NCBI GenBank assembly: GCA_022865345.1
Contig: JALHSU010000097.1
Span: 1-37,145, forward strand
DNA length: 37,145 bases
Source of the DNA: Candidatus Zixiibacteriota bacterium
GTDB lineage: Bacteria; Zixibacteria; MSB-5A5; RBG-16-43-9
Reading direction: 5' to 3'
The notes below the pieces were generated by a model that was given only the letters and a program-made list of their open reading frames with translations, did no database searches and had not been told where the DNA came from. Both the position numbers and the translations under genes were made by a program. Shown here one piece after another: positions 10,435 through 28,174 of this stretch; position 1 is the stretch's first letter, and the number at the start of each line of letters is the position of its first letter.

Positions 10435-10985
10435 GTGAAGAAAAGGATGACACTCTATAAAAACCAATACCGCATCGAATCCACCCGCTTAAAAGAGTGG
10501 GTTTACTCCCGTTACGGCTATTATTTCGTAACCATCTGCACAAAAGACAAGCAGTATTTTTTCGGTGACATTGTAGCAGATAAAATGCAATTGTCAGAGA
10601 TAGGGAAAATAGTTGCTGGCGAATGGGGAAAAACAGATAGTATTAGGGATTACGCAAAATTGGATGAATGCGTGATAATGCTCAATCATTTGCACGGGAT
10701 AGTTATAATTCAGAATGAAAACAACGTAGAGACGCATTCGATGCGTCTCTACGAAAAGATAATTTATCAAATATCATTCGTGGATTCAAATCTGCCACGG
10801 TCAAAAAAGCTCACCAAAAAGGTTTTACGAATTTTGCCTGGCAATCCAGATTTTATGACCACATTATCCGCAATGAAAAAGAGCTACATGACATTCGGCA
10901 ATATATTGTTTATAATTCCTTAAAATGGCAATTTGATGAGGAGAATCAAAATAATATAAAGAAACAAACCGATAACAAAAAATAA
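10435..10985 (+). pseudogene. Frameshifted REP-associated tyrosine transposase (RAYT, Y1/IS200-like)
   Basis: The first half reads MTLYKNQYRIESTRLKEW and GYYFVTICTKDKQYFFG, then LNHLHGIVII, where HLH is the HUH metal-binding motif of Y1 transposases. After the REP palindrome inside the gene (10726-10752) the expected continuation is found one frame over: DNLSNIIRGFKSATVKK, then WQSRFYDHIIRNEKELHD and IRQYIVYNSLKWQFDEEN, ending at a stop at 10983-10985. That part holds the tyrosine of FYDHIIR, expected to be the nucleophile. Without the shift, translation stops at 10923 in unrelated sequence. One extra base (or two lost) near 10750-10756 explains it. RAYTs mobilise or maintain REP palindromes. 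The start may be GTG at 10435 or ATG at 10447. Confidence 0.85.
10726..10752. repeat. REP palindrome, copy 2, inside the RAYT gene
   Basis: Perfect arms GTAGAGACGCAT and ATGCGTCTCTAC flank TCG. In the upstream frame it encodes VETHSMRLY. The frame break of the RAYT gene falls at its right edge. Confidence 0.9.
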
Positions 10986-14772: not shown

Positions 14773-15750
14773 ATGGGGTTAGAGCTTCTCTATTTAGCAG
14801 ATCTGGACGAGCAAAAATGGGAAGAGCTTCTTTTTAACTCTCCTTTAAGCACCTTTTATCATAAGTCCAACTGGGCTAAACTCTGGTTTTCCAGTTTTGT
14901 TTATTTCACGCCTCTTTTTTTAGTTTATTCAGGCGAAAATGGAGAATACAAGGCAGGCTTCCCTTTTATCCTCTCTGATAAGTACAGGTTGAAAAGGGTC
15001 TATTCGATGCCGTTTGGCACCTATGGCGGAATGATTCTCTCTAAAGAGCTTTCGTCAGAGGAAGCCGAAGAGCTATACAGAAAAATCGATGAGGAGTTAA
15101 GGAAACTCAAACTGGCAAGTGTGGAGGTGATAGATTTTTTCGGCCAGCAAAAGAATCTTATCCAGTACGGTTATAATGCTGTGAAAGCTTATACCCATCT
15201 TCTGGATTTATCAAAATATATGGATGACCCGGTTCATAAGACCAAAAGGGGTGCAATCCAGGCAGAAAAAAAAGGTGTGAAGGTGGAGCCTCTCTCCTCA
15301 GTCGAGAAAATCAGAGATTGTTACAACCTGGTTCTGGAAAGAGACAAACGGCACGGGTTAAAAAGATCGAAATTCCCGCTCGGCTTGTACGAAAATATCT
15401 GGAATATTTTGAAATCCGGACAGGAGCTCCGATGGAGCGTGGCAACAGTCGACGAACAGACCATAGCCTTTCAGATAAATTTCCTTTTCAGGGATACTAT
15501 TTATTATTGGGAGGGTGCCTCCCTTTCTGAAGCTTTGAACCTGAGACCCAATGATGCTTTGTTCTCCGATACTATCCAGTGGGGGATTGCTCAGGGTTAT
15601 AGATACCTAAATTTAGGGGGTTCTCCGGAAAAAGCAGAAGGACTGGTAAGATTCAAAGAAGCCTGGGGAGGAGAAAGAAAAGATTACCTGATTTATTCAA
15701 AGAAGAAATTCTGGTATAAAACTGCTGAGAAGCTGAGACGACTTTTGTAG
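14773..15750 (+). CDS. FemAB/GNAT-like aminoacyl- or acyltransferase
   Basis: 325 residues, resembling the FemAB-related GNAT proteins (BioF2-like, Acetyltransf_6) often found in polysaccharide clusters. Visible blocks are FYHKSNWAKLWFSS, FPFILSDKYRLKRVYSMPFG, a DPVHKTKRGAIQAEKKGV segment, FQINFLFRDTIYYWEGAS, and YLNLGGSPEKAEGLVRFKEA with the usual aromatic-rich end. Such enzymes add amino acids or acyl groups to peptidoglycan or surface-glycan precursors; the substrate here is unknown. It follows the propeller gene by 6 nt and precedes glycosyltransferases. Its stop codon TAG is the second to fourth base of a GTAGGGACAG palindromic repeat, so the C-terminus has been set by the repeat. Confidence 0.8.
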   Translation: MGLELLYLADLDEQKWEELLFNSPLSTFYHKSNWAKLWFSSFVYFTPLFLVYSGENGEYKAGFPFILSDKYRLKRVYSMPFGTYGGMILSKELSSEEAEELYRKIDEELRKLKLASVEVIDFFGQQKNLIQYGYNAVKAYTHLLDLSKYMDDPVHKTKRGAIQAEKKGVKVEPLSSVEKIRDCYNLVLERDKRHGLKRSKFPLGLYENIWNILKSGQELRWSVATVDEQTIAFQINFLFRDTIYYWEGASLSEALNLRPNDALFSDTIQWGIAQGYRYLNLGGSPEKAEGLVRFKEAWGGERKDYLIYSKKKFWYKTAEKLRRLL

Positions 15751-15781
15751 GGACAGAATCCGCCTGAGGTGGATTCTGTCC
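15747..15781. repeat. Palindromic repeat that supplies the FemAB-like stop codon
   Basis: Perfect 11-bp arms GGACAGAATCC (15751-15761) and GGATTCTGTCC (15771-15781) flank GCCTGAGGT. A relative with the same loop lies at 21694-21733 and a compact one at 23143-23173. The GTAG at its left end includes the TAG stop. Confidence 0.85.
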
Positions 15782-17046: not shown

Positions 17047-18462
17047 ATGAGCCAAGACCTCGACAATAAGAAAAAAGTTCTTATAATAGCCTATTACTTT
17101 CCCCCTTTAGGAATGGGCGGGGTACAGAGGGTTTCTAAATTCGTCAAGTATCTCCCTTCTTTCGGCTGGGAGCCCGTGATTTTGACGGTAAAGGATATTG
17201 ATTATTTCTCCCGCGACGATTCGCTTTTAAAAGAATTGCCCGAAAGTGCAAAGATTTACAGAACCGGCTCCTTTGACCCTTTGAGGTTAAGCTACCTTAT
17301 CAAAAAAATATTCAGAACAAAAACCAGCGACCCTGAAAGGGTCGCACTACGAAATTCACAAAAAGAAAAAACCGAGAGATTCTTCCCCCGCAAGAAGCGG
17401 GGTCAGAATGACAGGTTCTTTTTTTCATCCTCGCGTAGCAGAGGCTTTAAGCCTCTGCTAAAGTTTGCAGACCTGTTTCTGTTCCCAGACAACAAAATAG
17501 GCTGGCTACCGTTTGCTTTGATAAAAGGAATCAGAATATGCAAAAAAGAAAAGATAAATCTTTTGTTTTCCACCTCTCCTCCTTTGACCTGCCACCTGGT
17601 AGCTTTTTTCCTGAAAAAGTTGACCGGCATAAGATGGGTCGCAGATTATCGTGACTCATATATTAGCTACCAGAATGCAAAAAGACCCTTTTCTCTGAAG
17701 TACCTGTTGTTGAAAAGTCTGCAAAAATCATTCTTAAGACGAACAGATGGAGTCGTCAGCGTAAACCAGACCATTGCACAGCATCTCAAAGAAACCTATC
17801 CTCCCGTAGGGAAAATTGAGGTAATCACCAACGGATATGACCAGGAGGATTTTGAAGTTGAAGTCAAAAAAAACAAAAATATTTTCAGGATAATCTATTT
17901 TGGCACTTTCAGCCTTGATTGTCCTGCAGAGCCTTTCCTGAAAGCTTTGAGTAATCTTTTGCATCAGGGGAAAATAAGCCAGGACAAGATTAGATTTATT
18001 CACGCTGGCATCTCAATCGGCATGAATATCGAGAAAACGATAGAGGAGTATGGATTAAAAGAGGTCACAGAGTTGAAAGGCTATCTGTCACATATAGAGG
18101 GGATTGAAAAACTACTCGAATCTGATCTGGCTTTACTGACTATAAGCCAATCTGTTCCAGTCATAAGCACCGGCAAAATATATGAATATTTTGGTGCTCA
18201 AAAGTCAGTTCTGGCAATTGCCCCTCAGGATGGAGAGGCTGCTAAGTTGATGCAGTCTCTTGGCGCAGGGAAAGTAGTATCTCCTGAAAATATCCCGGAG
18301 ATAGAAGATGCTATCCTGTCCTTCTATCGAGAATTTGAAGCTGGAAGGTTTCTTTTCAAAGCAACTCCTGATATGACAGAAAAGTATGAGAGAAAATATT
18401 TGACCTCAAGACTGGCTTGTCTCTTTGACGATATATTGAAAAGAGAATGGATTGTGATTTAG
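17047..18462 (+). CDS. GT4-family glycosyltransferase with palindromes embedded in frame
   Basis: 471 residues. The N-terminal lobe has KVLIIAYYFPPLGMGGVQRV, a common start in this family, then WVADYRDSYISYQNAKR; the C-terminal lobe has IIYFGTFSLDCPAEPFL and STGKIYEYFGAQKSVLAIAP. It probably adds a sugar to a surface glycan. Between residues about 94 and 138 lies an unusual Arg/Lys/Ser-rich insert (from SDPERVALRN to SSSRSRGFKPLLK) whose DNA is three separate palindromic repeats (17327-17345, 17376-17415, 17436-17460). The reading frame is kept throughout, so the protein may tolerate the insert as a surface loop. The start ATG has no clear ribosome-binding site; a tandem 8-bp repeat fills the spacer upstream. 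Confidence 0.87.
   Translation: MSQDLDNKKKVLIIAYYFPPLGMGGVQRVSKFVKYLPSFGWEPVILTVKDIDYFSRDDSLLKELPESAKIYRTGSFDPLRLSYLIKKIFRTKTSDPERVALRNSQKEKTERFFPRKKRGQNDRFFFSSSRSRGFKPLLKFADLFLFPDNKIGWLPFALIKGIRICKKEKINLLFSTSPPLTCHLVAFFLKKLTGIRWVADYRDSYISYQNAKRPFSLKYLLLKSLQKSFLRRTDGVVSVNQTIAQHLKETYPPVGKIEVITNGYDQEDFEVEVKKNKNIFRIIYFGTFSLDCPAEPFLKALSNLLHQGKISQDKIRFIHAGISIGMNIEKTIEEYGLKEVTELKGYLSHIEGIEKLLESDLALLTISQSVPVISTGKIYEYFGAQKSVLAIAPQDGEAAKLMQSLGAGKVVSPENIPEIEDAILSFYREFEAGRFLFKATPDMTEKYERKYLTSRLACLFDDILKREWIVI
17327..17345. repeat. Palindrome A inside the GT4 coding sequence
   Basis: Perfect 7-bp arms GCGACCC (17327-17333) and GGGTCGC (17339-17345) flank TGAAA. It encodes about residues 94-100 of the glycosyltransferase. 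Confidence 0.85.
17376..17415. repeat. Half-copy of the TGTCATTCTG element inside the GT4 coding sequence
   Basis: The sequence runs from GAGATTCTTC to CAGAATGACAGG, with an inner hairpin CCCCGC-AAGAA-GCGGGG. Its two ends match the right half of the complete 72-bp element at 18522-18593. It encodes part of TERFFPRKKRGQNDR in frame. Confidence 0.85.
17436..17460. repeat. Palindrome C inside the GT4 coding sequence
   Basis: Arms TAGCAGAGGC (17436-17445) and GCCTCTGCTA (17451-17460) flank TTTAA. It encodes SRGFKPLL in frame. Confidence 0.85.
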
Positions 18463-18521: not shown

Positions 18522-18593
18522 TGTCATTCTGAGGGAACGAAGTGACCGAAGAATCTCGAGATTCTTCGTCCCCTACGGGGACCCAGAATGACA
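18522..18593. repeat. 72-bp MITE-like element, complete copy
   Basis: Outer arms TGTCATTCTG (18522-18531) and CAGAATGACA (18584-18593) are perfect. A 20-bp perfect palindrome centred between 18557 and 18558 (GAAGAATCTC then GAGATTCTTC) sits inside, with TCCCCTACGGGGA near the right arm. A left half-copy lies at 21438-21480 and a right half-copy inside the GT4 gene at 17376-17415. Confidence 0.88.
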
Positions 18594-27260: not shown

Positions 27261-28118
27261 ATGATCGCATACTTCATCTTGGTGCATCGGTATCCCGGCC
27301 AGTTCAAAAGACTCTTTAGGGCAATTTTCCATCCCGCCAACTACTACTTGGTACATGTGGACAAGAGGTCAGGCCTTGGATTACAGACGGAGATACAAGA
27401 TTTCTTGTCAAGCTTTGCCAACAACGCATCCTTGCTGAAAAGCCAAAGCATTCTTTGGGGGGGATACAGCATGGTAGATGCTGAATTGCGAGGCATCGAG
27501 GAGTTATTGAAGATCAGCTCGGAATGGGAATTTTTCATAAACCTTAGCGCACAGGATTTCCCCCTCAAGTCGCAGACGCACATCCAAGACTTCCTTAGCC
27601 GCAATATAGGAAAGGATTTCATCAAGGTGGCTAACCAGAGAAAGATACGCCCTGATACACTATCTCGAATCGAGAACTACTGTATCGAGTTTAGCAAGAG
27701 GATACTACGCACTCCTATCAAGCGACCGTATCTTCGAGGCGTGACTCCTTATATCGGAAATCAGTGGATGATCTTGAGCCGGAAGTTCTGTGAATATATG
27801 TGCTACAGCCCTGAGGTCAAAAGGTTCAAGAGATTCTATCGGCACACCTTTATACCTGATGAAGGATTCTTTCAGACGGTAATAATGAATACTAACTACG
27901 AGGCAACTATCGTGAACGACGATAAAAGGACAATTGTGTGGGTGCCGGCAGGTACAATAAAGTTACGTCCGAGAGACTTCACATCCAAAGACTCCGAATT
28001 CTTGCTGGCAAGTCAAGGCTTGTTTGCCCGCAAATTCGACGGAACCGTTGATGCAGGAATCTTGAGTATATTAGAGTCGAATCTACGTAGTAGTAGGTCA
28101 GGAGCACGGGGCTTCTGA
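27261..28118 (+). CDS. GT14-like glycosyltransferase (core-2/I-branching family)
   Basis: 285 residues. MIAYFILVHRYPGQFKRLFRAI and YYLVHVDKRSG open the protein as in branching beta-1,6-N-acetylglucosaminyltransferases and xylosyltransferases (Branch family). Further blocks are WGGYSMVDAELRGIEELL, FFINLSAQDFPLKSQTHI, GNQWMILSRKFCEYM and FIPDEGFFQTVIMNT. In bacteria such enzymes decorate surface polysaccharides. The last residues (SRSGARGF and the stop) are encoded inside a palindromic repeat (28091-28125), so the natural C-terminus was probably replaced. The start has AAGGAC upstream, and a structured element lies before that. It is apart from the other glycosyltransferases. Confidence 0.82.
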   Translation: MIAYFILVHRYPGQFKRLFRAIFHPANYYLVHVDKRSGLGLQTEIQDFLSSFANNASLLKSQSILWGGYSMVDAELRGIEELLKISSEWEFFINLSAQDFPLKSQTHIQDFLSRNIGKDFIKVANQRKIRPDTLSRIENYCIEFSKRILRTPIKRPYLRGVTPYIGNQWMILSRKFCEYMCYSPEVKRFKRFYRHTFIPDEGFFQTVIMNTNYEATIVNDDKRTIVWVPAGTIKLRPRDFTSKDSEFLLASQGLFARKFDGTVDAGILSILESNLRSSRSGARGF

Positions 28119-28125
28119 CCTACTA
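28091..28125. repeat. Palindromic repeat, right copy, containing the GT14-like stop codon
   Basis: Perfect arms TAGTAGGTCAG (28091-28101) and CTGACCTACTA (28115-28125). The TGA stop of the glycosyltransferase (28116-28118) lies within the right arm. Confidence 0.9.
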
Positions 28126-28174
28126 TTTTGTATTTCAGCTAATTGTTACGAGTTACCCGCAACAAGTTTTATCC

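Follow-up and report, generated by a model that had tools for sequence, protein, structure and literature searches.

In-frame palindromic repeats of different families layered in one loop of a Zixibacteria glycosyltransferase gene

Palindromic repeats inside genes

The presence of GTAG REPs in frame inside genes, including several per ORF, has been known since 2013: Di Nocera et al. 2013 (PMC3733652) described GTAG and CGTC REPs which are mostly intergenic overall and lie in frame in some genes, reported ORFs with two REPs at close or distant sites, and suggested that flexible linkers tolerate them. REPs were also described in frame within the transposase genes of TnpA-REP subclass 2.4 (Quentin et al. 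2018, PMC6006769). The Rickettsia palindromic elements (RPEs) are longer, about 150 nt (PMC10969869), and the RPE of R. conorii ends in CGTC (PMC3733652).

We analysed a window of 37,145 nucleotides from Candidatus Zixiibacteriota bacterium (contig JALHSU010000097.1), in which the gene of a GT4-type glycosyltransferase carries three palindromic units, called here E1, E2 and E3. As with the GTAG REPs of Di Nocera and collaborators, we deal with short GTAG-ended palindromes, mostly intergenic and sometimes in frame; the differences are that the GT4 loop layers different repeat families, that an orthologue lacks the later two, and that the host belongs to Zixibacteria, a phylum for which a word search of PMC3733652 finds no mention. 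The likeness to TnpA-REP subclass 2.4 concerns in-frame REPs in a variable protein loop, which the RAYT ORFs of this genome and its relatives also show, whereas the GT4 host is an unrelated enzyme and not the transposase. The original prediction compared the insert with the RPEs, and the comparison is good for behaviour but not for kind. Palindromic repeats are indeed placed in frame in a gene, to which they add a peptide segment, and this gene is probably functional, judging from its open frame, the existence of an empty site and dN/dS values of 0.15-0.18. Their sizes (28, 38 and 26 nt) are far from the 100-150 nt of RPEs, and the CGTC tag is absent: E1 and E3 end in GTAG and E2 in GAGATTCTTC / TCAGAATGACA.

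The three units and their families

The host ORF (17047..18462, plus strand) runs uninterrupted for 471 codons and its product matches Pfam Glyco_transf_4 (E=8.4e-11). E1 is a GTAG-tagged REP unit of 28 nt on the minus strand (17327..17354), coding for residues 94-103 (SDPERVALRN); it reads GCGACCCTGAAAGGGTCGC then ACTACGAAA, with a 19-bp palindrome at 17327-17345 and a GTAG which is the complement of CTAC at 17347-17350. E2 (17376..17413, plus strand, 38 nt, residues 110-123) is a single half of a BIME/MITE-like element with the layout GAGATTCTTC-CCCCGC-AAGAA-GCGGGG-TCAGAATGACA, where CCCCGC-AAGAA-GCGGGG is a hairpin. E3 (17435..17460, plus strand, 26 nt, residues 130-138) has the sequence GTAGCAGAGGCTTTAAGCCTCTGCTA, an exact 25-bp palindrome at 17436-17460 with GTAG at 17435-17438. 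These exact matches confirmed the three palindromes that had been predicted at this place in the GT4 gene and the preservation of the reading frame, which is open across all of them; the half-element, given earlier as 40 bp, is present and measures 38 nt. The predicted Arg/Lys/Ser-rich stretch of about 45 residues was found as well: residues 94-138, which correspond to the three units and the bases between them, contain 19 such residues out of 45. E1 and E2 are each open in four of their six frames, and E3 in three of six. The RNA of the insert folds much more strongly than its shuffles (z = -5.8). A search for known RNAs in the insert gave only a match to the L20 leader, on the other strand (E=0.009), which with 27.5 bits for a cut-off of 58.7 we attribute to chance.

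The genome (2.86 Mb) contains 52 copies of E1 at one mismatch or less, and none of its reversed control. The repeat is restricted to the family, being present in four members: this genome, two members of its genus (32 and 31 copies) and one of another genus (5 copies); at the same threshold it is absent from the 94 other relatives searched. Among 50 copies sampled in 0.78 Mb of stretches, many of them chosen for E1 matches so that E1 densities are biased upwards, 48 are intergenic and the other two are those of the GT4 gene and of a 105-aa ORF; none of 30 further loci, from this genome and relatives, has E1 well inside a gene. Neighbouring copies present the full unit TTTCGTAG[T/C]GCGACCC-TTTCA-GGGTCGC, the layout of a GTAG-tagged REP, and often adjoin other palindromes, such as GTAGCGCGAGGC. 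E2-type halves number 14 in the 0.78 Mb sample, 11 of them intergenic; one lies at residue 27 of a 1121-aa ORF, likely upstream of the true start. An inverted dimer of such halves, the MITE of the original prediction, occupies the intergenic region downstream of GT4 (18522..18593; inverted repeats I5 and I6), while the GT4 gene has one half only and not the two inverted halves of the BIME/MITE-like dimer. E3 is near-unique: the genome has one other copy, with 3 mismatches, GTAG-tagged and intergenic. Both E1 and E3 are palindromes of 20-40 nt with GTAG at one end, which E2 lacks; the high copy number and mostly intergenic location of GTAG-tagged REPs are found for E1 and not for E3 with its two copies. 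In the sample, the density of multi-copy repeat islands is 2.73 per kb outside ORFs and 0.095 per kb inside, a difference of about 29 times, the ORFs being called by a simple length rule rather than by a gene finder and some of them being spurious. Most other repeats inside ORFs of the sample belong to RAYTs or short ORFs, or are found where an ORF begins or ends. The matches of E1 and E2 to dispersed families bear out the idea that mobile palindromes entered a coding sequence in frame.

Four further repeats were noticed. A single-copy 25-bp palindrome lies in frame in the linker of a CopA-like P-type ATPase (L113:7678-7702). In the window, the end of a Core-2/I-branching glycosyltransferase ORF (27261-28118), its last residues and stop codon, comes from a REP-like inverted repeat (28084-28132), and a GTAG palindrome (15746-15781) gives the TAG stop of an acetyltransferase/FemAB-like ORF (14773-15750). 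A direct repeat of 189 bp, 88% identical (1-189 and 2603-2791), spans a stretch at the edge of the window and another that includes the start of a protein-kinase ORF.

Order of insertion and state of the enzyme

The closest orthologue, from Zixibacteria RBG_16_43_9 (L061), is 78% identical over residues 1-426. In it, E1 occupies the same codons (GCGATCCTAAAAGGGTCGCGCTACGAAATTC) and E2 and E3 are missing; where these two sit, it is shorter by 25 residues (75 bp by alignment). The E1 stretch keeps 25 of 28 bases between the two genes, and the left flank 33 of 57. In a homologue of another genus of the same family (L062, 59%), a split and decayed E1 stands at the same offset, as GTGACCCTGA, 21 extra nt and AGGGGGCACACTGCGAAT; it matches 22 of 28 bases around the split, and none of 300 shuffles did as well. 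The search for an E1 remnant in four outgroup homologues gave scores at background, and the window protein exceeds more distant orthologues by 31-32 residues. Because E1 is common to RBG_16_43_9 and, in decayed form, to L062, and because RBG_16_43_9 is without E2 and E3, E1 is old, with an entry before the two genera of the family split, and E2 and E3 came later. The latter are recent and confined to the lineage of the window; their loss in both RBG_16_43_9 and L062 would be a less simple alternative. The three units were therefore not inserted in a single event, and of residues 94-138, which close homologues were expected to miss, RBG_16_43_9 lacks 25 and keeps those of E1. Palindromes landed in the GT4 loop at least twice and most likely three times, if E2 and E3, which belong to different families, arrived as separate events, as we infer. 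No target-site signature was recovered from the linker flanks, because these are too diverged.

On both sides of the insert, the gene is under purifying selection between species: the dN/dS of the window gene versus that of RBG_16_43_9 is 0.146 upstream (residues 1-88) and 0.180 downstream (139-425), in a two-species comparison which is no proof of selection since the arrival of E2 and E3. The polarised downstream changes are 17 amino-acid and 18 synonymous on the window branch, and 10 and 9, respectively, on the other branch; since the synonymous changes rise with the amino-acid changes, there is no clear relaxation on the window branch. The AlphaFold model has a confident GT-B fold, with a mean pLDDT of 83 and MshA/BshA as best PDB matches, and its pLDDT falls below 50 at residues 90-102 and 109-135, which take in most of the insert. 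Among homologues, the same linker is about 18 to 68 aa long. This variable length and the low pLDDT fit a tolerant loop, predicted to be flexible, in a protein which presumably is made and active. We also looked for recurrent REP insertion in the same loop in other families, and found no REP-like palindrome in the GT4 linker of homologues outside the family.

Origin and meaning of the insert

Several RAYT (REP-associated tyrosine transposase) loci exist in the genome, as goes with GTAG-tagged REPs, so a mobiliser for GTAG REPs is available. A check of 12-mer flanks, covering the REPs inside RAYT ORFs, identified no RAYT flanked by E1, and for this reason the mobilisation of E1 by RAYTs is presumed. 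The window itself has a frameshifted RAYT (10435..10923, plus strand), a relative of the candidate REP mobilisers with paralogues in the genome, which holds a REP in its loop (10725-10753); its frameshift comes from the loss, between two copies of a REP, of 43 nt that are present in the intact G002 gene. An in-frame palindrome with arms of at least 8 is present in the loop of 24 of 25 RAYT ORFs from Zixibacteria relatives (L174-L203, L076, L077 and related loci), 8-25 residues after the HUH motif and with many different sequences. REPs inside RAYT genes are not a new finding, having been published for TnpA-REP subclass 2.4 (PMC6006769).

The scenario we favour is the following: E1, one of the GTAG-tagged REPs, whose movement is attributed to RAYTs, would have inserted in the GT4 loop before the two genera split, and later, in this lineage only, the E2 half-element and the second GTAG palindrome, E3, would have entered the same loop, E1 and E3 being putatively moved by RAYTs. 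Their survival in frame would reflect a filter, through which a needed gene sheds inserts that break its frame, whereas open, in-frame ones are tolerated, the latter because the loop is flexible and by nature varies in length. Neutral tolerance of RAYT-mobilised REPs in a permissive linker is the most likely mechanism, and we are highly confident in this explanation as a whole, jointly with the view that residues 94-138 come for the most part from the translation of repeat DNA. The peptide added by the repeats is most likely functionless in itself.

Selection for the basic peptide, whose REP-derived residues (e.g., RFFPRKKRG) would form a new membrane- or partner-binding loop, could account for the abundance of Arg, Lys and Ser and for E1 codons better kept in two species than their left flank. 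We nevertheless consider it very improbable: the E1 copies differ at positions which also vary among copies of the family, the E1 of L062 has decayed and is split by 21 nt, the loop is predicted to be disordered, E2 and E3 occur in one genome only, and the basic composition comes from the repeat sequence itself. A related proposal is that of a repeat trap, in which the first REP lengthened the loop and raised its tolerance, later REPs piled up, and the basic segment is now useful, for example for membrane contact; its chances seem to us equally slight. It could also be that the GT4 gene is a decaying pseudogene, by chance still open across the inserts, as E2 and E3 are recent, the gene is known from its sequence, and in the RAYT gene of the window a REP-associated frameshift did lead to decay. 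With 471 open codons, low dN/dS on either side of the insert, and amino-acid and synonymous changes rising together on the window branch, such a state of the gene has very little probability. Still less credit can be given to a local origin of the palindromes by slippage or template switching, with no insertion of mobile repeats: for E1 and E2 it is refuted by their close matches, flanking tags included, to dispersed families, and what speaks for it is E3, whose one relative with 3 mismatches only weakly suggests mobility.

What distinguishes this locus among in-frame REP insertions in genes is the unusually clear layering of different repeat families in one loop, together with a relative providing the empty site. 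It adds Zixibacteria to the bacteria with REPs inserted in frame and constitutes a datable case, in which one insertion is family-wide, later ones are confined to a lineage and a close relative serves as empty site. Two fates are found in one window, the frame being kept in the GT4 gene and lost in the RAYT, and the GT4 case may be used for studying how mobile DNA adds disordered segments to proteins.
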